From Amphirosellinia nigrospora (taxonomy: Eukaryota; Ascomycota; Sordariomycetes; Xylariales; Xylariaceae): a DNA stretch of 64,000 bases. Under the pieces are notes generated by a model. The model was not told the DNA's origin. It saw only the letters and a list, made by a program, of their open reading frames with translations, and ran no database searches. The position numbers were made by a program, and so were the translations under genes. Numbering within the stretch: position 1 is the first letter of the stretch; each line of letters starts with the position of its first letter. Where the stretch lies: assembly GCA_004123355.1 (NCBI GenBank), contig SCHM01000002.1, positions 6,421,569-6,485,568 on the forward strand, written 5' to 3'. Positions 26,455 to 63,403 of this stretch are shown in pieces.

Positions 26455-26713
26455 TTATATATTCGAAAAAATAAAGCTTTAATATATATAATATTATATA
26501 TAAAATCTATAAATAAAATAGGAAAAAAGGAAGGTCTAAATCTATAGTATAAGCAGCTGCTTAAATACTCGCGTGGGGCAGCTACATTCACTACCAGTGC
26601 GCCTTCATTCACTACAACTGCATTTACTACAAGTGGTAGTTACTACAAGTGGAAATTACGGGTGCTATGGCTAGTAGTAAGGCACAGCTACCAGAGCTTG
26701 CAGATCGTAACTG
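26455..26713 (-). repeat. LTR of the 20.1-26.7 kb Gypsy fossil (5' LTR on the minus strand)
   Basis: Repeat partner of 20084-20356. The outer (high-coordinate) half is almost unmutated: GTGGGGCAGCTACATTCACT and the following CA/TG-rich sequence are intact, whereas the left copy has the RIPed form. Confidence 0.85.
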
Positions 26714-26775
26714 TTATATATTTTAAACGGAACTATTTTTAAGTTCGCTATAATTATCGATATTTTTAACTAGTA

Positions 26776-26993
26776 TGACATAGTTACGTACGGGGGCACT
26801 AGCTACTACGTGGCTAGTGGGGCCCCCGAGGCTGTGGCTCGTGGGCAGGGGCCCACGTGACCCCACGTGACCCACGTGGGACCCACCTGTGTATATAGAT
26901 CCGTGGCAGTGGCCTCCGGCCACCACCACCACCACTTATACATCACCACACAATATGACATAGATTACAGCATACCTCTGTAATCTTGTGTTA
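26776..26993. repeat. LTR-like unit 1 of the compact element
   Basis: This copy runs from TGACATAGTTACGTACGG to TCTTGTGTTA. It contains three CACGTG boxes and a GTGGCCTCCGGCCAC hairpin. It is the most divergent of the three, notably between about 26811 and 26830. Confidence 0.8.
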
Positions 26994-26997
26994 AGCT

Positions 26998-27222
26998 TGA
27001 CACAGTCACGTACGGGGGCACTAGCCACGCAGTGGGGACCCGGGGCTGTGGCTCGTGGGCAGGGGCCCACGTGACCCCACGTGACCCACGTGACCCCACG
27101 TGGGACCCACCTGTGTAGATAGATCTGTGGCAGTGGCCTCCGGCCACCACCACCACACTTTACTTATACATCACCACCACACAATATAACATAGATTCTA
27201 GCCCCTCTAAAATATCGTGTTA
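26998..27222. repeat. LTR-like unit 2 of the compact element
   Basis: Begins TGACACAGTCACGTACGG and ends ATATCGTGTTA. It carries four CACGTG boxes within about 40 bp. It follows unit 1 after four bases and borders the 759-bp core on its right. Confidence 0.85.
27061..27110. promoter_or_regulatory. CACGTG (E-box/G-box) array in unit 2
   Basis: Four CACGTG palindromes occur in close succession, separated by ACC or ACCC. CACGTG is the core site of many fungal bHLH factors (Cbf1/Pho4 type). The same array occurs in unit 1 (about 26850-26880, three boxes) and unit 3 (about 28049-28086, four boxes). Regulatory use is inference only. Confidence 0.45.
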
Positions 27223-27981
27223 AGTAATGCCTCCATAGTAAATAGCTAGGACCAGGCCCTTCTGAGTCACCTACCCCTCGAGCCCTGCAGCTTATTTTTT
27301 AAGTCGTTCCTACGATTAATTTTTGCGGTTAAAAATAATTTTATTAGTTGCCGCAATACGTATAAACAGCTGTTTGCAAATCCTACGCGCGGCGAATTCA
27401 AGTACTTAAGCCTAAGCAATTTATATTCGTACGTAATCGGTAAATTTAAATACCCAACTACATATTATTATAACTACGCTGCTGCTATTAACACCTTATT
27501 AACGCTACTTGCTATCGATATTCTAACTAATTAAATACTTTCAAATCTTTTACTTAACTAACTTTCGCGCTATTTATATAGCCGAAACGCTTAAAGTACG
27601 CTATACGGCAGCTATATAAGAAAACTGTTTAAGTGAGCCGATCGGGATCTCGAACAGTATAATACTTCGACAATGCTTTCGCTAGCTATTCGTTACCCTT
27701 TATACTTTAACCTTAGCAAACCTACGTGCTTTATATAAACCTATAGACCCTATAGGTCTACGCAGACCTGCTCGGACCTACAGACTTTTACCTACGTAGA
27801 CCTACACAAACCTATAGATCTATAGACCCTTGTAGACCTTTACGGACCTAGTGGAGGGTCTAGAGGCATTGGCGAATATAGTAGATCTAAGGACCTGCGT
27901 GGCTAGGGCTGTAGCTAGGGCTGTGGCTTGTAGGCTAGGTAGGCTATTGAGGTTAATAGATTTTGCTATATATGCGGCACT

Positions 27982-28207
27982 TGACACAGTTACGTACGGG
28001 GGCACTAGCCACGCAGTGGGGACCCCGGGCTGTGGCTCGTGGGCAGGGGCCCACGTGACCCACGTGACCCACGTGACCCCACGTGGGACCCACCTGTGTA
28101 GATAGATCTGTAGCAGTGGCCTCCGGCCACCACTACCACCACTTTTACTTACACATCACCACCACATAATATAACATAGATTCTAGCCCTTCTAGAATAT
28201 CGTGTTA
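27982..28207. repeat. LTR-like unit 3 of the compact element
   Basis: Begins TGACACAGTTACGTACGG and ends ATATCGTGTTA, directly followed by the TAGTA target duplication. It is very close to unit 2, with four CACGTG boxes spaced slightly differently. Confidence 0.85.
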
Positions 28208-28304
28208 TAGTAGTTATTAGCTTATTTAAACTTTAACTAACGGTTAAACGAAATAAGTATTATTTATAAATAATATTAAGCTAGTTATATATTTAACGCG
28301 CTTT

Positions 28305-28503
28305 TGTTAGATTTAATAATATATGTGTATTAATTATCTATGATTGTTGCTAAGCTTAATTAAGGTATTTTTAGTATAAAGTATTTAATAAGAGTACTAG
28401 CTATTAGTTAAGCTTTAGCGTATTATTATATATATTAAGTAAATAACCGGGTGATTTATTTAGTGATATATAAGTAGATTATTAGTTAGTGCGTAATTTA
28501 ATA
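28305..28503 (+). repeat. Left LTR of the outer nested element
   Basis: Shares with 49338-49538 long blocks such as AGTACTAGCTATTAGTTAAG (variant AGCACTAG on the right) and TAGTGATATATAAGTAGATT. Its first bases retain TG and nearby ATGTGT, which are RIPed in the right copy. Confidence 0.9.
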
Positions 28504-49543: not shown

Positions 49544-50023
49544 TGCTATTTTTTTTAGTAAAAGTCTTAGCTTAAAAAGATTTTATAAAGCTTAAAAACA
49601 ATAGTGCTTATATAATAATATTTTAATTTAATATTTAAACTTTATAGCTTAATAATATTATAGTTTGTTTAAGTAAAAACTAAATATTTAATAGTTATTA
49701 TAATTAAAATTTTTTTTTTTCCGAACTTATATTATATAATTATTTTAGCTCGCACTATTAGCTAGTATCGCTTTAATATTTTTTTAATAAGTTAGTACAA
49801 TAAAAAAGCATGTAATAAATATTATAAATTAAAACCTAAATTTTATTTTAAACTAGATATATAAAAAAAGCTTAGCTTTATAGTAAAAAATATAAACAAA
49901 TATAATAAAAAACATATAACAAATATAATAAATTAAAACCTAGGTTCTAATTTTATACTAAAACAAAAAAAGTAAAGGTATAGCTAGCACATTATATAGC
50001 TAAATACGCAACTCACGAAATAG
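49544..50023. other. AT-rich stretch between the LTR nest and the NLR gene, no gene seen
   Basis: This stretch is moderately to strongly AT-rich and becomes less so toward the NLR island. The word ACAAATATAATAAA and a phrase AAACCTAGGTTC/AAACCTAAATTT recur at about 49826-49960, suggesting a short local duplication. It may contain the degraded first exon or promoter of the NLR gene, but no start codon joins cleanly to the coding sequence that follows. Confidence 0.55.
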
Positions 50024-50829
50024 ACTTACGAAACAGTGTCTCTAGAGCTAAGATCCTTCCGAAATAAGAAATCGTTAACTCCGGGGGTTGGGCTGATGAC
50101 TACGTGTTTATTGCCGGGGATATGCTCGGGCATAATATCGTTGTCGCGACACTCCCAGCTGGTCAGGAATACGGGACTGGCTCGGCGGCAGCTCTGGCAA
50201 GCCAGGCCAAAGCGTTCTTCCCTAACCTTTGGTTTGGGCTACTTGTGGGCGTAGCCGCAGGCCTCCCGAACCTGTCACGAAAACCAGTTCGCGACATTCG
50301 ACTTGGCGATATTCTGGTGGCTCTTCCCGACGGCGAGAGTGCGGGCCTAGTAGCCTACGATCTAGGAAAGGAGACGAACGATGGGTTTCAACCACTGCGC
50401 TTCGGGCACGTTTTAGCCAATACCGAGCCTGTTATTAGGTCTGCCATCGGTAGTATCAAGCTTCGCGCTCGGAACGATACACAAATCTTCCTCCACTACT
50501 ACCAAGCAATGAAAGACGAAGAACACGATGAAGGTACATTTTTGGATCCTGGGCAGGACAATGATATGTTGTACGAGACGATAGAGGACGGAACAGAGAA
50601 GCTGAAATCGGATGCCGCGTGAGGTCTCTAAACGCACCCGCGTTTGGTATGGACCGATAGGCTCGGGAGAGAAACTTCTAAAGAATGCTGGTAAGAGGAA
50701 TGACCTCAGGGATAGATACAACATTATCGGCCTTGAAATGGAGGCTGCTGGGACTATGAACCGCATCCCCATCGGTGTAGTCCGAGGGTGTGCGACTACG
50801 GAGATGTGCATAAGAACAAGGAATGGCAG

Positions 50830-50933
50830 GTAAGTACACTAATACTTGACACCTCGCACTCTCGCGAGCAAATCCAAAACCCGTGAGTGTTCACTGTAAT
50901 TGGCATTTACTGACCTCATGTTCGTTAATACAG
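50830..50933 (+). other. Intron 1 of the NLR gene (in the PNP domain)
   Basis: Donor GTAAGT follows the codons for KEWQ. A branch site CTGAC lies at 50910-50914 and acceptor TACAG ends at 50933. It is 104 bp, phase 0. Removing it joins HKNKEWQ to PYAAAMAAAYAK, the expected PNP-domain order. Confidence 0.85.
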
Positions 50934-51140
50934 CCATATGCTGCTGCTATGGCTGCCGCATATGCCAAGGCTATACTGAATGAAATACGGCCTCGACAAC
51001 ATCTACGGTTGGCAACCCAAGGCGAGCAACCGAAATGGGAGATCTACGGTCCGTTGATCATCCGGGGCAGGCAGCCGAGACGGGAGGCTCGCGATCGGTC
51101 TTTAATGGCCCGATTAGCGGTCGGAATGTTGTTGCCGGAA

Positions 51141-51880
51141 CAACGTCAACCGGCCAGTGAACATGAAATTTTCGTAAAGTATTGGGAAGATCTAGCCTGA
51201 AAAAGCTATTGGCTACCTGGTATTATTAGGTTTTGATACCTGCGTTTTGGCAACATTCGCTTACTCAAGGCACTGCTTATGGCCTCAGTACACCACCTAA
51301 ATGCCTAACAATAACCTAGATAGGCACATGGGTAGAAGTCATGACGATTAACGCCTTATATTAAGTTAGAGAAAACGAGCATGAGATTGAGTACTTATAT
51401 ATGCTTTCTAGTTCACATAGATAGTATTGGGTTTAGGTGACTCATTTGAAATAACGTCGAGCTTAAAGCGGCTGGTGCAAAACGGCACTGTAACCCTACG
51501 CCCGTACGGCCGGCTGTAAGGCGTACATGCTCAGTACCCGATCTTCCAAAATCAGGCAGCTGACCGGACTATCTTTTACAAACTCAGTTTGGTGATACTC
51601 TCCATCGGTCTGCGACAATCTTTTAAACTGTCTTTGATACTCTGCTTGACGGACGTACCGCGGACACAGGAAAGTGGCGCATATGGCTAACAATACAAGT
51701 TCGTTTCGGACTATCGATTCCCACAACGCCCTTGTTGGGAACCACTTTCTCGGCGCGGCTAACATCACAATCCGTGGCCCACAAGGTACTATAACATATT
51801 GCTGCATTCCACAAACAAAGGCCGTAAAAGATACGAGACTGACATGACAAAGACCATTCTCGGCCCCACCCCCCGGCAGT
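51141..51880 (+). other. NLR inter-domain linker, poorly resolved
   Basis: Between the PNP domain and the NB-ARC domain the reading is unclear. Just before this segment, at about 51101-51155, one frame reads FNGPISGRNVVAGTTSTG, a glycine-rich, beta-prone stretch, with VNMKFS in a neighbouring frame. At about 51720-51800 the plus strand can be read as HFLGAANITIRGPQG. A minus-strand frame of 145 codons (51496-51933) overlaps it but has no recognisable motif and ends inside the NB-ARC coding region, so it is treated as chance. There may be another intron here. Confidence 0.45.
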
Positions 51881-52013
51881 CTACCGCTCGATCCCGTTCC
51901 CGCCAACGAAGACCTGGTGCACCGGAGCAACATATCGCGCGCCCTCGACCAACTCCTCCCTCCTCGGCTTCCAACTACCAGTCCGCTGCTCTATGGGGAC
52001 TGGGTGGGTCAGG

Positions 52014-52065
52014 GTTAGTTCAGAGTTACTTAACATCTGTGTGGCCCTGTTACTGACAAGAGTAG
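52014..52065 (+). other. Intron 2 of the NLR gene, inside the Walker A loop
   Basis: Donor GTTAGT, branch site CTGAC at 52053-52057, acceptor AGTAG ending at 52065; 52 bp. Splicing joins ALWGLGGSG to KTQIALAYAYG, restoring an uninterrupted P-loop (GxGGxGKT). The intron splits the last glycine codon of the loop. Confidence 0.88.
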
Positions 52066-52567
52066 AAAAACACAGATCGCTCTTGCATACGCTTACGGCC
52101 GATGTCGCGACCTTACCTGTTCCGTGTTTTGGGTCCACGCTGATACTGAGGCGTCATTTACGAAAGATTACCAATTGGTTGCGCGGAAGCTTGGCCTTGC
52201 AACTAATCTCGATGGCGAAGACCTACTCCGCGCCGTGCGTGAGCGGATCGAGGAGATTCCAAACTGGGTTTCTCGTGATCGACAATGCAGATGATTTGAC
52301 ACTGTTTAAAGTCACACAATCACAACGCCCTTCTCCTTCTGATTCTAGATCAACCTTAAATTCATTCATACCCATAAGTCATACCGGAACTGTGTTATGG
52401 ACGAGTTGCGATCAGCGTATCGCGGGTAGTCTCGTAGCTGCACGACGGGCGATTCACATTGTACAAATGACATCTGCGGAAGCGGAGGCATTGCTAGATA
52501 CAGTCAAGAATACGAAAACAAGGGAATGCAAGTACGGCTTCATAAGAGAGTTGCTTACCGAGCTAAA

Positions 52568-52580
52568 CTATCTCCCACTA
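52568..52580 (+). repeat. Target-site duplication, left copy (CTATCTCCCACTA)
   Basis: This is NLR coding sequence for YLPL. It recurs as CTATCTCCACTA at 61360-61371, with one C fewer, on the other side of the 8.8-kb element. Confidence 0.8.
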
Positions 52581-52581
52581 A

Positions 52582-52735
52582 GGTTTGGAAATAAGTACCA
52601 TAAATACCCACGGAAAACCCATAGGTTTTTCTAAATACCTAAAAAACCCATAGGTTTTTTTTAATAAGTTAACCTATATTTTAACCTATGGGTTTTTTTA
52701 AATACTAAAAAACCTATAGGTTTTTTTAAATAAGT
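52582..52735. repeat. Left terminal/subterminal repeat block of the 8.8-kb element
   Basis: GGTTTGG is followed by ATACCCACGGAAAACCCATA and then by three or four AACCYATAGGTTTTT palindromes in both orientations. The inverted counterpart is at 61.20-61.36 kb. Confidence 0.75.
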
Positions 52736-55700
52736 TTTACTATAACTAAAAATAAAAATATAAACAATATTAAATTAAAAGCTAAGCTTATTTATAATTA
52801 ACGTTAAAATTTATCGATTAATTGCTTATTATAGCTATAATTATTAAAATATATATTAATCTTTATATTAATCCTAAAATAAATCCTAGCAATAAATTAA
52901 ATAAATATATATTTAAACTTATTTATTTTTTGCCCATATTACTTATTATTGCTAAACTTTTTAGTTTTCTTGCTTTTAAATAAATTTTAACCAAACGATA
53001 TTTTTTTATTTTTTTATAGCAGCTTTTACAATAATTTTTTCGTTTATTTTTATATAACCTTAATAAATATAATATTATAAATAAAAAAATAATTAAAAGT
53101 TATAAAAATATTAATATTAAAATATCGAATTATTTATATAATAATAAATACTAAATAAATATCCTTAAATATAAATATAATATATTTAATATATATTATT
53201 ATAAAATATACCGCTAAATAAACGAATTAATATATAAATTAATATAATATTAATATAAAAATATACTAAATATAAAAATATAATAATACTTTTAAAAGCT
53301 TTTATTAAACTATAATAATAAATTCTTAAATATAAGCGTTAAATATATAGCTATATAAAATATTTTTATAAAATACAAATTTTTAATTAATAAAACTAAA
53401 TATAAATTATTTTAAAACTATTAAATTTTTATAAAACTTTATTTAAAACTAAATTAATATAATAAATATAAAATATACTATTTTTTAAATATTAACTTTT
53501 TATAGCGCTAAAAAACTATTTTAGCTAGTTTTTATTTATTATTTTAAACGTAAGCATATTTATAAAAACTTTAGTTTTTTTAATTAGTTTTTAAACTTTT
53601 TTATATATTAAAGTTTAAAAGCTAAAAATTTACGAAAATTTTTTATTAGTTATAAAAGTTATTTTTGCTCGAAAAAATATTTATACTTAGTTTTATAGTA
53701 TTTTTTAGCTTTTTAAAAATTATTTATATAGCAAAATTAATATATAATTAATATATAAAAAATAAATTTAAATATAATTACCTAAGATTTTAATAATATA
53801 TCGGATTTAATAGAAAACCTTTTATTATAGCTTTTTTTTTTAATATTAAAACCTTTTTTTATAGCCTTTTTTTTTTAAGTATTAAAACTTTCTTTTATAA
53901 CTTTTTTTTTTTAATATAAAAACTATTTTAATAAATAGCTATATAATAAAATTAATATATAAATTAATATATAAATTATAAATTAAATATATTTATTAGT
54001 TTGCTTATTTATAGTTTTTTTTATTACTAAATTTTTTATTAGTTTAAAAAAAAGTTTATTTATAATATTAAACCTATTTATATATTAATAATAATATTAT
54101 TTATTATTTCTAGTTTAATATTTATTATTTTATTAAATATATTATTTAAAACTATTATTATATTAACTTTTAATATAATAGTAAAAATTATATTTTTAAA
54201 TAAATTAAAAACTATTAATTTAATAATAAACTTTTTTAAAAATAAATTAATATAACTATTAGTATAAAAAATAATTAATAAATAAATAATATATATTATT
54301 AGTTTTAAAAAGTTAAATTTTTAAGCTTTTTTTTAATTGTTTTACTATTTTTTTTAGCAAAGTTTAAAGTAATAAAAATTCTTAGCGTTTTTATTTATAA
54401 GCTTTAGTTTATTTTTTAAATTCCGCTAAATTTTAAAATTATTGCTTTATTATTATTGCTATTTTTTTATTATTTTTACATAACGCTTATAGTTTTTTTA
54501 TATTTAATTCCTCGGGCTTAATATATAGCTTAGTCGATTTAATTATATAATTAGTATATATATTATATATTTAAGCTATATTTATAAATTCTAAGTATTT
54601 TATTACTTATTTATTTAGATTTATATTATTTGCCTTGCTATTTTAATAGCTATAAAATAATTATATCGATTAATATAATAATTAATATAAATATATTTAG
54701 TTTTTTATTATTATTATTTTAGTTTATATAATAAAACAATTAATCTATAATTAGCTAAAAATTAATAATAGTTAAATTTAACCGAAAAAAAATAAAAAAA
54801 TTAATTAAAATTAAATATATAAAAATCTAACGAAAATTTTAAATATAATAAAAATTAATATATACTATATAAAAATAAAAAATAATTATAAAAATTAAAA
54901 GCAATATAATATAAAAAATATATAAAAGTTTTTTATATAGTAAAATAAAAACTATTTTTATTAAAAAAATAAATCTGTTCTTTTTAAAAAAAAAACCCTT
55001 TTTTAAAAAAATTTTTTTTATTTTATATTTTAAAATTAATATATAATTAATATATATATTTTTATATAAATATTATTTAATTATAAGTTTTATTTATAAA
55101 AACTTTAAGTATATTATATATTAATAACTAAAAATAATAGTTAAAAAAACTATATTATTATAGTTTAATATTATTATATTATACTTTTTCGGGCTAATTT
55201 TAATAAATTTAAATCGATTTAATTTTAACTTTTTATTTTTTTATTTTTATAAAAAGTAAAATTCTATATAGCAAAGTTCTATATAAAATTAATCTTTAAT
55301 ATATCGAAAATAAGTTCTAAAATATATATTTTAATCTTATTTTTAAAATAATTAATAAGCTAAAAATTAATATTTATTAACGCTAAAAAATATTCTATAA
55401 ATTAAAATTAATAATCGTTAAAATATTTATATTAAAAAAAATAACTATATAAGTTTTTAAGCTATTTTAGCTATATATATTTATTATATTTTTTTTTTTT
55501 TTTTTTTATTAAATATTTTTTATTTAAAAATATATATAAAAATTAAATATATAATTTATATATATATAAAATATAAAATAAGCTTAAAAATACTAAAAAA
55601 TAACTTATTTTATTTAAAGTAATAAAATATTATAAATAAATAACTATATATATTTTAATATAATAAAACTGTTTATATAAAAATATATTTTATATAAGCG

Positions 55701-56654
55701 TTATAAACTTAAATAAAATATACTTAATAGTTTATTAGTAGTTAATTAATTTTAGCTAATATAAATATTATATATTAATTTTAATATTAATTATTTTTAA
55801 AAAATAAATAATTTATAACGTAATAAAATTTTATTAATAATATATTATATAATATATATTATTTAATAATTATAAGCTTTATATTTAAATTAATTAAAAT
55901 ATAAATATTAAAATATATTATATTTTATTAAAACTAAACTATAAAAAATTATTATTCGTTTAAATTAACTAAAGCTTATTATTATATTTTTGCTTATTAA
56001 TTATATTTTTATTAAAATATAATATATATTTTAATAAATTAATAGCGTATTTTATATTTTACCCGTTATTATATTTTATATATAAATATTTTTTACTTAT
56101 TAAACAATTTATTAAACTATATAAAAGCTTTAAAATTAATAATACTATTATATAAAAATATCTTAGTTATTATTTTAGCTTTTTTAATATATTTATTAAG
56201 TTTTTTTAACCGAAATTAATATTAATAATAAATTTTTTATATATTTTTATTAATTATTAAATATTGTTTACTATACTTTTAGCTACTATTTATATATTAT
56301 AAAATATTTCCTTATAAATATAAAACTAGTTAATATATAGCTTATATAATTTTATTTAAAAAAGCTAAAAATATTAATAAGCTAAATAAAATATAAAATA
56401 ATACATAATAATATATTAATATAAAGCTATATTATATTATTAATAATAAACATAACTAAAAACTTTTTAATAACTTTTTTAATAGCTAGTTATAGTTTTT
56501 ATACTTTTTATAACATAAAAATAATTAAATTTTAATAAGTTTTAATATTATAAACTATTAATAATTAAAATATTAAACTTAATAATTTTTATATATTTTT
56601 AAACTATTTTTAGCAAATAATATTATTTTAAATATATATTATTAATAATTAAAA

Positions 56655-56705
56655 CTATATTAATTAATATATTAATTAATATATTAATTAATATATTAAT
56701 TAAAT
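56655..56705. repeat. 12-bp palindromic tandem repeat (ATTAATTAATAT)
   Basis: ATTAATTAATAT is repeated four times head to tail inside the 8.8-kb element. The array can fold on itself. Confidence 0.8.
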
Positions 56706-59700
56706 TTAAAAAATATACTTTTTTATTATATTACTTATAATATTTAAATAATATATTATTTTTTGTTTTTTATTTATTATTTATATATAAATATAGCTTG
56801 TTTAATAATTTTAATAGCTTTATTAACGCCGATTTTTTTAAAATATTGCTTAATATTAATTAAATAGTATAAAAAAAAAAATAAATAATATAAATTTTCT
56901 AACTAACTATAATATTTAATTAATACTAGATAAAATTAACATTAAAGCTAGGTTTATTATTATAATATATTTAAATATTTATATAAAAGTTATATTTTTT
57001 TAAAAACTAATAATTTATTTTATACTATATTTATTTATTTAAATATTAAATAAATATTAATAAAAACGTTATATTATTATTAATATTTATTAATAAAATA
57101 TATTACTACTTTTTAATAATATTTTAATTAGCTAAAATTAATTTATATATTGCTAATAACCTTAATATTAAACCTAAAAATAATTCTATTAAACTAATAT
57201 TAAATATAAAAATTATTATAAATATAATACTATATAAATAACTTTTTCCTATAATAATAACTATTTATTATTAAACGATATAATTAATATTTTATATTTT
57301 TATTTTTAATAAAATTAAACGGGCAATTTTTTAAAACTTAAAAATAAATAAAATACCGGTTTTTATTTATTAATATTATTATTATTAAATTAATATATAA
57401 TTAATATAAATAAAATATAACGTACTTTTATTATATTTAGCTTTTAGTTAAAAATATTTTTTATAACTATTATTTATATTTTTCGCTAATAAATAAATAT
57501 ATAATTATACTATTTAATTTTAAATATATAATATATATTAAAATAATATTATACTTTTTATAAATTAGTTTTAACTTTTTAATATTTATTTTTACGCTTT
57601 ATTTTTAGTTATTTTAACTAATATTTAATTATTTTATTTTATATTTTATCGATTTTATAAATATTATTTTTTATTATAATATATTTTATATTATCTTTAA
57701 TTATAACTATTTTTAAATATTTTATTTATTATTATTTATAATAATATAAAAAAGCTTTTATAGTTAAAAATAATTTTATTGTTTGTTTTTTAGTATTTAA
57801 ATAGTATTTTTTTAAATTTAACGTTATTAATAAATTTATTAAAGCTTATATAAATATTAAAACTAAAATAGCTAAAATATTTATTAAAAATAAGTAATAA
57901 ATATTAATAAAAAATTTTCGATATTTAGTATAAATAGTATATCTATATTAAAAAAAAAAAATAATTAAAAAGCGGCTAAAAATTAAATTATTATTATTAT
58001 TTTTTAAAATAGTTTAGTTTAATAAAATAAACTTTTAATAATAAAACAATATTATTAATTATAATATTTAAATCGTTTTAAATAAACTTTAAAATAATAA
58101 AATCTATTATAAATAATAATAAAGTAATAATACGTTTTAATAAAAATATTATTATTAAACTATAAAATATAATTTTTTAAATAAATATATTAATTTATAT
58201 ATTTATCCCTTTTAGCGCTATTATATAAATTATTTTTTTTATTAAAAATAAACTATATAAACGCTATAGTTTTTTATATTCGTTTTTTTTTTTATTAGTT
58301 TTATTTATTTATTTTATTATTTTTTTTATTTAATATTATTAATTTATTTTTTTATAGCTTATAATAATATAAAAAATCTAAAAACGTTTAACTATAATAT
58401 TAAAAAATATTTAATAAGTTTTTTTTATTAATAATAGCTAATTTATAACTTTTGTTTATTTTTACTTAGCTTTTTTATATACTTATTTAACCCGCTTTTT
58501 TTAAGCTTTTATTAATATAAAAAACGCTAAACGGATAAAATATAGTTTAGCTAATTTAGCAGCTATTAAAAACTAAAAAAAAAAAATATATATATAAAAA
58601 ACAATTAACTAAAATATTAATAAAAGCTAAAAATATTAATTTATTTAATTAATATAATAATTAATATATTATTTATTTTATTTTAATTAATATTTTATAA
58701 AAAATTATAAATATTAATAAATAGCAATTTATTAATCTTTTGTTTATTATTGCCCGATTTATAAAAAAATAACTACTAAAATAATAGTTAAAAAATATTA
58801 ATTTTAAAAAAATACTATTAAAACTTTATAAAAAGTAATAAAAACTTATTTAATAAAATATTTATTTATATATTTTTTTTTAGTTTTATAACTTAAATAT
58901 TAATTATATATAAATATTAACTATTATACTATTTATATAAAATATATTATAATTATACGCTTTAATATTTAATTATTAAAAAATTTAGCTAAAAAATAAA
59001 TATTTTTTTTATATAATAATAATAATTAAAAATTAAAAACTTTAAAAATTTTTAAAACATATTTTAATTAAAAAAGCAATAAATTATATAAATAATAAAA
59101 AAAATAGCAAACCTATTTATATATATTTTATACTATATATATATATTTATATTATTTTTTTTTTTAATAATATATTTTAGCTAATTATTATATTTTTTTT
59201 TTATTTATAACTTTTATAACTTTTATCGGCTAGCCTTTTTTTAAAGCTAATTTTAATTAATAAATTTAGTTTTATAGTTTCTAACTATAAAATCTTATTA
59301 TATATATATTTATTTTTTTTTATTATATTATTTACCTTTATATTATTTAATTATTATATTTATATTTTATAATTTTATTTTATTATATTAATTATATTAA
59401 TTTTTATATAAATAGCTTTTAAACGTTTAAAAAAAAATTAGCTAATATAGCTGCGCTAAAATAGCGTAAAAAAAAATCAATTATTAAATAACCTATATAT
59501 ATAAAAAGTTTATATATATTTCCTGCTTATTTAAAAGCTAAAAAACTTATAAAAAAAGTTTTATTACTATTAAACGTTAAATTAAATATAAATAAAAAAA
59601 TTAACGAAATAAAAACTTAAATATTATTTTAAAAAAAGTTAAAAGTATATTAGCTTATTATTAAACAAAAATTAAAAAACTAATATATTTTATACTAATT

Positions 59701-61195
59701 TTATATTAATTTTTTTATTAACTATTATAACTATTATAATAAAAATAAATATTTTAATTAAATTATTATTGCTTATAATTATACTATTTTTTTAGCGTTT
59801 TTAATATAATTAAACTAGCTATAAATGTTAATTTAATAATAAAAATTATGATTTTTTTGTTCGTTTAAATAATAAGTTTAAAATTATTAATTTAAACGAA
59901 AATAATCCTAATTATACTTATTATTTTATAAAAAATATTAAAAAAAAAATACGAAATTTTTCGGGCCGTTAAATTATATTTTTAAATTTGCTCGAAAATA
60001 AGTTTCGATTTTTATTTCGTAATTTTAATATTTTAATTTTTAATTAAAAATATATTATTTAAAACTATTATTTCGAAATAAATATTTTTTAATTAATATA
60101 TAATTAATATATATTAATAGTTTTTAAGTTATTTAACCTTATTATTTTAAACTTTTTATTAATTACTTTTTATATTTTTAATAAAAAATAAATATTATAA
60201 AATTTATATTTTATTAAGCGTATATATTAAAAATTTTATTAATAATTTTAAAATATGCTATTTATATTTTATAATAAGCATTAATAAGTTTATATTAAAA
60301 TATATTATTATTTTATTTTTAGTAACTTTTTATTAATTTTTAAAAATTAAATTATAATTTATATAACGCTTAAAAAAACGCTTAAATTTTTTTTTTAAAA
60401 CTTTATTTTAAAATTAAAGCTTTTTAATACTAACTAGTTTAATTCTAAAATTTTATTTATTTTATTTTTTAAACTATTTAGTTTTAAAATTTAAATAAAA
60501 TAAAACTATTAGCTAAATTTATTTTAAATAAAATTACGCTTATTATAATTTTTACGTCGGATAAACTATAATTATTATTTTTTTTTATTTATATTTTTAA
60601 TAATATTAAAAAATAGCTAGTTTATTTTTTTGTTTAATATTAAGCTATTTAGCTTGTTTTTATTATTAAATAATATATTATTTTTATTTAATATATAATT
60701 GGTATATTAATTTATATAGTTAAAATAAATTATAATTTATTTAATATAAAATAAAACGTTATAATATTATTTTTTTTAAGTTTTAAAGCTTTTGCTTTTA
60801 GTTATTTATAACGTTTTTACTATTTTTAGTATACTATAAAAAATTTTAAACTTTAAATATTTAGTTTTAGAATTTTTTTAAGCTAACTCTTATTATTATA
60901 ATTTATTTAAATTAACTAAACTTTAGCAATTTAATAATAATAAAATATTATATAGTTCTAAAGTTAAAAATATTTCCTGCTTTAATACTAGCTTTAATAT
61001 AATATTTATTTATATTAAATAAACTATATATTATTTTTAGTATATTTTTACGTACTTTTATAAATAATTAAAATAAGCTATTTATATACTTATAATTTAA
61101 TTAGTATATAAATTAGTACATTAACTTGCTTTTATATTTTTATTCCGTAATATTTTAATCTTAATATATATTTTATTAATATTAGTTTAAAAAAT

Positions 61196-61359
61196 CTATA
61201 TAAATAATATAGGTATAAAAAACCTATATAAGTAATATAAATATAAAAAACTTATATAAATAGTATAGGGATAGAAACCTATAAGTAAAAAAAAACCTAC
61301 TAGCCTATATGGGTTTTTATGGGTTCTGGGTAAATGGGTTTTGGGTAAAAAACCAAACC
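61196..61359. repeat. Right terminal/subterminal repeat block of the 8.8-kb element
   Basis: Three units of about 29 bp (CTATATAAATAATATAGGTA followed by TAAAAAA) are followed by TATGGGTTTTTATGGGTTC, TGGGTAAATGGGTTTTGGG and CCAAACC. Read in reverse complement this block resembles the left end. Confidence 0.75.
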
Positions 61360-61371
61360 CTATCTCCACTA
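61360..61371 (+). repeat. Target-site duplication, right copy (CTATCTCCACTA)
   Basis: Matches 52568-52580 except for one missing C in the CCC run. It is followed by GCCGTCTCACAA, the natural continuation (A V S Q) of the NLR reading. Confidence 0.8.
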
Positions 61372-62128
61372 GCCGTCTCACAACTGCGGCATATATGCGA
61401 AGGATATCAACATCTGTTAAAGAATATCTTTCCGAAATCCAACGTAGCAAGGAAGAATACTTGGAAAGTCAAAACACGACCAGCACCGGCGAGAGCAGCT
61501 ATCGAACAGTGTCCTGGAAACTGGGACATCTCGTACAGCATCTACGAAAGGAGAACGAGCTAGCATACGATATATTACATTCATTGGCTTTTGTAGACAA
61601 CAAACATTCCGTTTGAGCTAATTCGCGAAGCCGCCCGACTCTCCAAAAAAGGAGGACTCTGTCCAGCCAGCTTAGCAAACCAGTGATGAAAGTGGCCGCA
61701 ATGCCCATACTGAAATGAAGACGATGACCATCGTGACATAAGAGAAGTCATCAATACGTCTTTGCGAGTTCATTTCTCGCATTCGAAATTCGGAACAGAG
61801 GAGCCCAAATAGAGCTTACGACATGCACAAGCTAGTCAAGAAGCTGCCCGATACCGCTTGCAAAAAATTGAAGACGATACGAAAGGGCAGGCTTACTTTA
61901 CGAAGTAGCGTTTCAGATCACAAACCATCTTTCCCGAAAGTAAAGAGCCGGATTACATTGCTTAGACACTCATTGGATGTTTGGAAATGTGTGAACAGTA
62001 CCTAGCCCACGCACAACAGGCTGGACGTGGGCAGCGCTGTATGAAGGGGAAATCGAAGTATCGGGTTGCTCCTTAATTTATGGCACTATTTAAACCATCG
62101 AGGCCGATCGATCGAGAGTGAGTTAATT

Positions 62129-63135
62129 ATCAAACGGTGCTCGACTTCCAGCTCGAGACACTGGGGAAACAAATCTAAGAACGATTGAAAGTATGCAGAA
62201 ACTTGGATACATATACGTGCAACAAAAGAGATATGAAGAGGCTGAGATCGTAAACCGACAAACGCTAAAGTTGAGGGAAAAAACTAGGCAACAAGCATCC
62301 CGACACAATTATAGCATGGCAAATCTTGCTAATGCTCTTCAGTGGCAGGGGAAGCACAAAGAGGCTGAAAAACTACTTCGTCAAGCACTGAAACTAGGTG
62401 AGAAGACGTTAGGCAAAAGGCATCCGGGCACGGTTCACGCTATAATCCATCTCGCTGATACTTTAAGAATGCAAATGCGGCACGAAGAGGCTGAAAAACT
62501 ATTTCGTGAAGGACTGGAACTACGCAGAGATGCTAGGCGAAAGACATCCTCCACATTAGACAGCATGTCCCGCCTGGCAATATCCTTGCAAAGCAAGGGA
62601 AACGTAAAGAAGCTGAAAACTTATATCGGCAAACACTAAAACTAGATGAAGAGGTGCTAGCAAAGACATCCTCCACATTAGACAGCATGTCCCGCCTGGC
62701 CAATATCCTTGCAAAGCAAGGGAAACATAAAGAAGCTGAAAACTTATTACTGGCAAACACTAAAGCTAGATGAAGATGTGCTAGGCGAAAAGCATCCCCA
62801 GACATTAGACGACATGTCCCACCTGGCTTATGTCCTTACAGACCAGGGGAAATATGAAGAAGCTGAAGACTTATCCCGGCAAGTATTGGACCTACGTAAA
62901 AGAGACGCAAGGCGAAAAGCATACCTGGACATTACGCGAAATGTTCCACCTTGCTTATACTCTTCAAGAGCAAGGGAAGCATGAAGAAGCTGAAAACTTA
63001 TACCAGCAAACACTAGAGCGATGTAACGAAACGTTGGGCGAAAATCATCCCTCCACATTACTGAGTATGAAAAAGCTTTCTCAAGTCCTTCGACGCCAAG
63101 GGAAACACGAAGAGGCGGGTGAGATTGCAGAGATC
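62129..63135 (+). repeat. TPR-coding array, about eight 42-codon units
   Basis: Units carry the pattern GK..EAE.L.RQ.L.L.E..LG..HP.T...M..LA..L. They are spaced about 124-126 bp. The C-terminal TPR domain of such NLRs is thought to sense the ligand. Frame changes inside the array move the reading between all three frames. Confidence 0.85.
62531..62778 (+). repeat. Two nearly identical neighbouring TPR units (124 bp each)
   Basis: 62531-62654 and 62655-62778 differ at only a handful of positions over 124 bp, sharing for instance CATCCTCCACATTAGACAGC. The next unit (from 62779) differs far more. This points to a recent duplication or conversion between adjacent units. Confidence 0.85.
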
Positions 63136-63314
63136 AAAGTTCAAGCAATATATGTACGTCTTTGGCAGATGAGCAGGATACGGATACCAACTCGCCCGGA
63201 AAAGCAGATCCGGCTCGGCGTGGAAGGAAGAGGAAACGGGCCAAACCGTCACAATCGAGGGAAAGATCAGATTCTGGTTCTAGTATGTCGTCTTCCTCCT
63301 CGCTCTATGTACAT

Positions 63315-63403
63315 GTAAGTCGGTAGATACCTATATTAGCTTGATGTATTTATACCTCGGTGAGGTTAGTTAATATGTATATAATATGTTTTCTGACTTT
63401 CAG
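63315..63403 (+). other. Intron 3 of the NLR gene, near the C-terminus
   Basis: Donor GTAAGT after SLYVH, branch site CTGAC at 63393-63397, acceptor TTTCAG ending at 63403; 89 bp, phase 0. The last exon (63404-63490) reads FRSGTSNRSQSFHYNF and ends TAG. If unspliced, the frame would stop at a TAG soon after the donor. Confidence 0.7.

Follow-up and report, generated by a model that had tools for sequence, protein, structure and literature searches.

Limits and ends of the AT-rich insert

Along the window, by which is meant the whole stretch of 64,000 nucleotides analysed here (contig C4:6421569-6485568 of a genome of 11 contigs and 48.1 Mb), the GC content is about 50% at 50-52 kb, 7-10% at 53-61 kb and again about 45% at 62-64 kb. 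The question raised by this locus is what lies between these two GC islands, about 9 kb apart, and whether they hold one gene or two. A preliminary description proposed that an element of about 8.8 kb with terminal inverted repeats (TIRs) had split a single NLR gene, and that, given an apparent target duplication of 12-13 bp, the element could belong to an undescribed or atypical group. The first of these proposals holds, as a GC-poor insert of 8,784 bp separates the islands, which lie apart because the element inserted within one gene; the second does not. There is very little doubt that the insert is an element of the hAT superfamily with an 8-bp target-site duplication (TSD), silenced by repeat-induced point mutation (RIP), a genome defence of fungi, and that it represents one insertion into an NLR-type gene, which resembles immune-receptor genes. 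The element and its ends are placed as follows:

52579..61362, + strand (TAGGGTTCGG-type end on the left): RIP-mutated hAT-superfamily element, 8,784 bp (limits of homology among 12 copies)
52579..52589, + strand: left TIR (in an un-RIPed copy, 10 of the 11 bases are complementary to the right end)
61352..61362, - strand: right TIR (pairing in an un-RIPed copy)

The GC content over the 8,784 bp is 9.9%, against about 45-50% in the flanking islands. Homology among the members of the family begins with TAGGG (TAAGG in the window copy and one other) and stops at CCCTA. Inverted ends are thus present, as previously described, but by the homology limits of the 12 copies the window element starts with TAAGGTTTGG rather than GGTTTGG and ends with CCAAACCCTA rather than CCAAACC. 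A TIR as short as this is characteristic of hAT elements, and TAGGG or CAGGG is the consensus start of hAT-like elements. Elsewhere in the window, GC rises to as much as 44% in a short island at 26500-28500, surrounded by AT-rich DNA, which holds three frames of at least 80 amino acids, none of them identified.

Copies of the family in the genome

Searches of the same genome with the left end of the element returned 12 places, and those with the right end 12 full-length and 31 shorter matches. These ends pair into at least 12 full-length copies, the window's included; genome searches score the best candidates, so that copy numbers are lower bounds. With copy ends placed by anchoring on match coordinates, eight of the other copies span 8.8-9.0 kb, while three span about 15, 26 and 57 kb, still with matching duplications, and were presumably lengthened by nested inserts. 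These long copies (C1:6.38, C4:4.57 and C4:4.93 Mb) entered the comparison of ends and duplications only; alignment and mutation counts come from the other nine of the 12. Three of the nine are un-RIPed (C4:911-920 kb, C9:143-152 kb and C9:764-773 kb), with 41.9% GC and 99.9-100% identity apart from small gaps, and six are RIPed, with 9.9-16.9% GC.

When the whole un-RIPed element was compared with the genome, the best candidates scored comprised copies, fragments and small relatives, together with a single partial match at C1:2.644 Mb; none was recognisable as the origin of a captured gene. The small relatives, retrieved by an end search that tolerated two mismatches, measure 257-341 bp and share the ends of the family. 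Seven of the eight loci fetched could be resolved and carry 8-bp duplications, five of them exact, one matching at 7/8 and one at 6/8 positions, all mismatches being transitions. Motifs of the ACCCATGGGT type are clustered near the element ends. One RIPed copy of the family (C7:195.6-204.5 kb) lies inside a polyketide-synthase gene, with the ketoacyl-synthase C-terminal domain on its left flank and the acyltransferase domain on its right.

Mutation of the inserted copy

Compared with one un-RIPed copy, the window copy carries 2,773 substitutions in 8,739 aligned bases, of which 2,720 (98%) are C>T/G>A, other changes amounting to 0.61%. The dinucleotide CpA is the most affected (999/1,059 sites, 0.94), yet all four C contexts are mutated, with rates of 0.75 for CpT (792/1,056), 0.69 for CpG (467/672) and 0.57 for CpC (462/810). 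Each of the six RIPed copies carries 2,230-2,720 changes of the RIP type, with other changes at 0.31-0.81%, and has lost 60-76% of its C:G pairs to RIP. The window copy therefore displays the C-to-T change on both strands, with preference for CpA and in repeated DNA, by which RIP is recognised.

A cause other than RIP, such as mutation with an overall bias towards AT in heterochromatin, could be considered on the grounds that the window is very AT-rich throughout (3-17% GC outside the islands), that CpA is not alone in being mutated and that RID is not identified in the genome. C5-methylase matches (PF00145), as RIP would require, lie at three places (C7, C1 and C4), and each may be of the RID or the DIM-2 type. 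Such a cause is nevertheless quite unlikely in view of the near-exclusive C>T/G>A spectrum with its CpA maximum, the GC-normal host DNA that directly adjoins the element, and the occurrence of RIPed copies at many places in the genome. The outermost 60 bases at either end are less affected, with 11 of the 30 C/G positions changed at 52579-52638 and 3 of the 26 at 61303-61362, against about 0.73-0.82 in the inner 500-base bins.

The interrupted NLR-type gene

The two parts of the gene, on either side of the element, are:

50092..52578, + strand: 5' part of an NLR-type gene, with a phosphorylase-like region and the NB-ARC up to ELNYLP (tblastn with paralogs to 50092-50829 and 52121-52580)
61370..63318 (end approximate), + strand: 3' part of the same gene, with the end of the NB region and tetratricopeptide repeats (TPRs) (TPR match, alignment to the paralog and frame across the junction)

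The insertion separates the ELNYLP codons from those of LAVSQ. Once the element and the right duplication are removed, the frame reads ELNYLPLAVSQ. This confirms the split protein of the preliminary description in part, with ELNYLPL on the left and LAVSQ to AAYMRRIS on the right, although AAYMRRIS follows LAVSQ in another frame and a frame break stands directly behind the insertion site. A paralogous protein encoded at C7:246 kb carries both NB-ARC (3.6e-7) and TPR (8.7e-10) domains. The left flank aligns to its residues 52-154 (E 4.7e-10) as two segments that do not share a frame, and the right flank, weakly, to residues 160-236 (E 0.042), running on into TPRs that Pfam matches directly. A match of the two halves to two different genes had been named in advance as evidence against a single split gene; instead, both lie in order on one NB-ARC-TPR protein.

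The N-terminal region is homologous to another protein, at C7:570 kb (46% over residues 5-98), which matches PNP_UDP_1 (6.4e-11). In Pfam scans, neither the phosphorylase-like and NB pieces of the window itself nor a phosphorylase-like paralog on C6 gave a match. Of the architecture typical of fungal NLRs, the TPRs are thus seen directly, and NB-ARC and PNP_UDP_1 only by way of paralogs that match Pfam. The combination of PNP_UDP_1 with NB-ARC is described for NLRs of Sordariales (PMC12258605). A gene of this phosphorylase/NB-ARC/TPR make-up, together with RIP-type mutations, suggests that the host is a filamentous ascomycete.

The alternative that the islands hold two genes divided by an AT-rich spacer, with no insertion inside either, would accommodate the weakness of the right-hand match and the failure of the searches to find a close paralog of the whole gene. 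At the DNA level, flanks of 699 and 700 bases matched the window alone in the genome, with no empty-site paralog; at the protein level, the left half found two weak other matches (E 0.03 and 0.07), and the right half itself and one match of E 2, with no convincing paralog. Such an arrangement is nonetheless highly improbable, and was rejected: the GC borders coincide with the element ends, both halves are collinear on one protein and leave their gap where the junction lies, and the reading frame crosses the empty site. The gene that received the element is decayed, with frame breaks on both sides of the insertion. Near its start (50020-50092), the window yields no counterpart at E 1 for the first 40 residues of a paralog, and the DNA is AT-rich to the left of about 50.02 kb; the gene may also have been cut at its 5' end.

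Length of the target-site duplication

The duplicated target flanks the element as follows:

52571..52578, no strand: left copy of the 8-bp target duplication, TCTCCCAC (flank comparison)
61363..61369, no strand: right copy, TCTCCAC, with one base lost (flank comparison)

Of the 11 other full-length copies, all carry an 8-bp host duplication, identical in eight and with one transition in three, as is typical of hAT elements. As a control, the left 8-mer of each copy was compared with the right 8-mer of another, and these 132 cross-pairs match at 2.0 positions on average and at 5/8 at most, whereas the own pairs of the 11 copies reach 7-8/8. In the window, TCTCCCAC on the left stands against TCTCC-AC on the right, with 5/8 matches ungapped, which is no better than the best cross-pair, and with all the remaining seven once one base is taken as deleted. 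The length of 8 bp is accordingly proved by the family, the window copy alone being insufficient, and for the window's own duplication the argument combines the deletion of one base with the pattern seen across the family and with the reading frame.

The longer junction reported previously, CTATCTCC(C)ACTA, does stand literally on both sides, but it is composed of the true 8-bp duplication plus terminal letters of the element. It appears to measure 12-13 bp because the initial TA of the element meets a host TA, and its terminal CTA meets a host CTA that precedes the duplication. CTA to the left of the duplication occurs in none of the 11 other copies, TA to its right in one, and both together in none. 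A short duplication in other copies had been named beforehand as a refuting outcome, and its occurrence in 11 of 11 disposes of the 12-13 bp. A reading from a single copy can thus let chance letters beside the element ends lengthen the apparent duplication. The CACTA superfamily, whose elements begin with CACTA and make 3-bp duplications, was also considered and rejected, as the CAC in the window's CACTAAGG is part of the duplicated 8 bp of host DNA and the copies start with TAGGG or TAAGG and have 8-bp duplications.

Transposase and superfamily

Within the window copy, the transposase gene survives as a relic:

55133..58140, - strand: transposase gene relic in four frame blocks, 57390-58140, 56706-57295, 55918-56558 and 55133-55745 (mapped from an un-RIPed copy)

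Over these four blocks the relic contains 84 in-frame stops, of which at most four may be the blocks' own ends. In the three un-RIPed copies, the transposase frames run on the other strand relative to the end orientation adopted here, and they are split differently in each copy. An HMM search for a transposase, suggested in the preliminary description, recovered the hAT C-terminal dimerisation domain (Dimer_Tnp_hAT, PF05699) in these copies, at 3.6e-10 in the last block and at 5.7e-10 with the blocks read together. Scanned over the genome, PF05699 exceeded the cut-off in the three un-RIPed copies, and the scan also pointed to one further place, C1:12.49 Mb. The transposase of Hermes, a hAT element of an insect, the house fly (structures 6dww, 4d1q, 2bw3 and 8edg), aligns with the C-terminal block, the LER/SER stretch included (E 3.1e-6 to 4.7e-6), while the earlier blocks gave alignments below threshold only.

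No Pfam match to an RNase H-like DDE catalytic core was over the cut-off in the transposase blocks, DUF659 appeared at 0.023 in one block and disappeared with a longer query, and a PDB search with one block returned a single weak match (E 0.16). Outside the transposase, about 2.6 and 3.3 kb of the element remain, with one antisense frame of at least 120 amino acids there in the un-RIPed copies, whose frames of that length included none recognisable as a captured gene. That the element belongs to an atypical or undescribed TIR group producing 12-13 bp duplications is, despite the junction string on both sides, practically out of the question, since all the other full-length copies have 8 bp, the extra letters are chance plus element ends, and the un-RIPed copies encode a hAT transposase. 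What had been a candidate for a new TIR group is in this way settled as hAT.

Proposed history and comparison with known elements

Four observations, namely the boundaries, the 8-bp duplication common to the copies, the hAT dimerisation domain encoded by un-RIPed copies and the C-to-T changes of the window copy, point to the following history. A putative cut-and-paste hAT DNA transposon of about 9 kb, with the ends TAGGGTTCGG...CCAAACCCTA, integrated into the NB-ARC region of a phosphorylase-like / NB-ARC / TPR gene, between the ELNYLP and LAVSQ codons, with duplication of TCTCCCAC. The insertion was probably made by the family's own transposase, and RIP in sexual cycles would then have mutated the inserted copy. 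The insertion may have been the first break of the gene, which has other frame breaks as well. The locus is thereby a clear-cut example of an NLR-type gene interrupted by a large hAT element that was then RIPed to 10% GC.

Large hAT-related elements are known from other fungi. ToxhAT, found in three wheat-pathogen fungi, is about 14 kb long, with 74-bp TIRs and cargo genes (PMC6737239). It resembles the present family as a large fungal TIR element with a hAT-like transposase gene adjoining it and RIP-affected copies, but differs from it in size (9 kb here), in TIRs (about 11 bp here) and in its cargo, none being recognised here. The histone-H3-carrying hAT elements of Pseudocercospora fijiensis are reported to have full lengths of 9.5-9.9 kb, an 8-bp duplication, a 20-bp TIR and CpA-biased RIP (PMC6710886). 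Size, duplication, short TIR and RIP bias are alike in both; the P. fijiensis elements, however, have captured H3 fragments and only DUF659 was found in their transposase, whereas the window family has Dimer_Tnp_hAT and no recognised captured gene (frames of at least 120 amino acids).

The size, duplication and RIP of such hAT elements being already known, the notable remainder is the presence of three near-identical un-RIPed copies beside RIPed ones, which may reflect recent activity or a weakened RIP. Given three un-RIPed 9-kb copies with 99.9-100% identity alongside six heavily RIPed ones, it is conceivable, at somewhat less than even chances, that since the last effective sexual cycle transposition has kept ahead of RIP or that RIP has been lost or weakened in this lineage, that the family is active now, and that its burst strikes genes such as the NLR and the polyketide synthase. 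Such a contrast between copies would provide a handle on when RIP last acted and on whether the element still moves.
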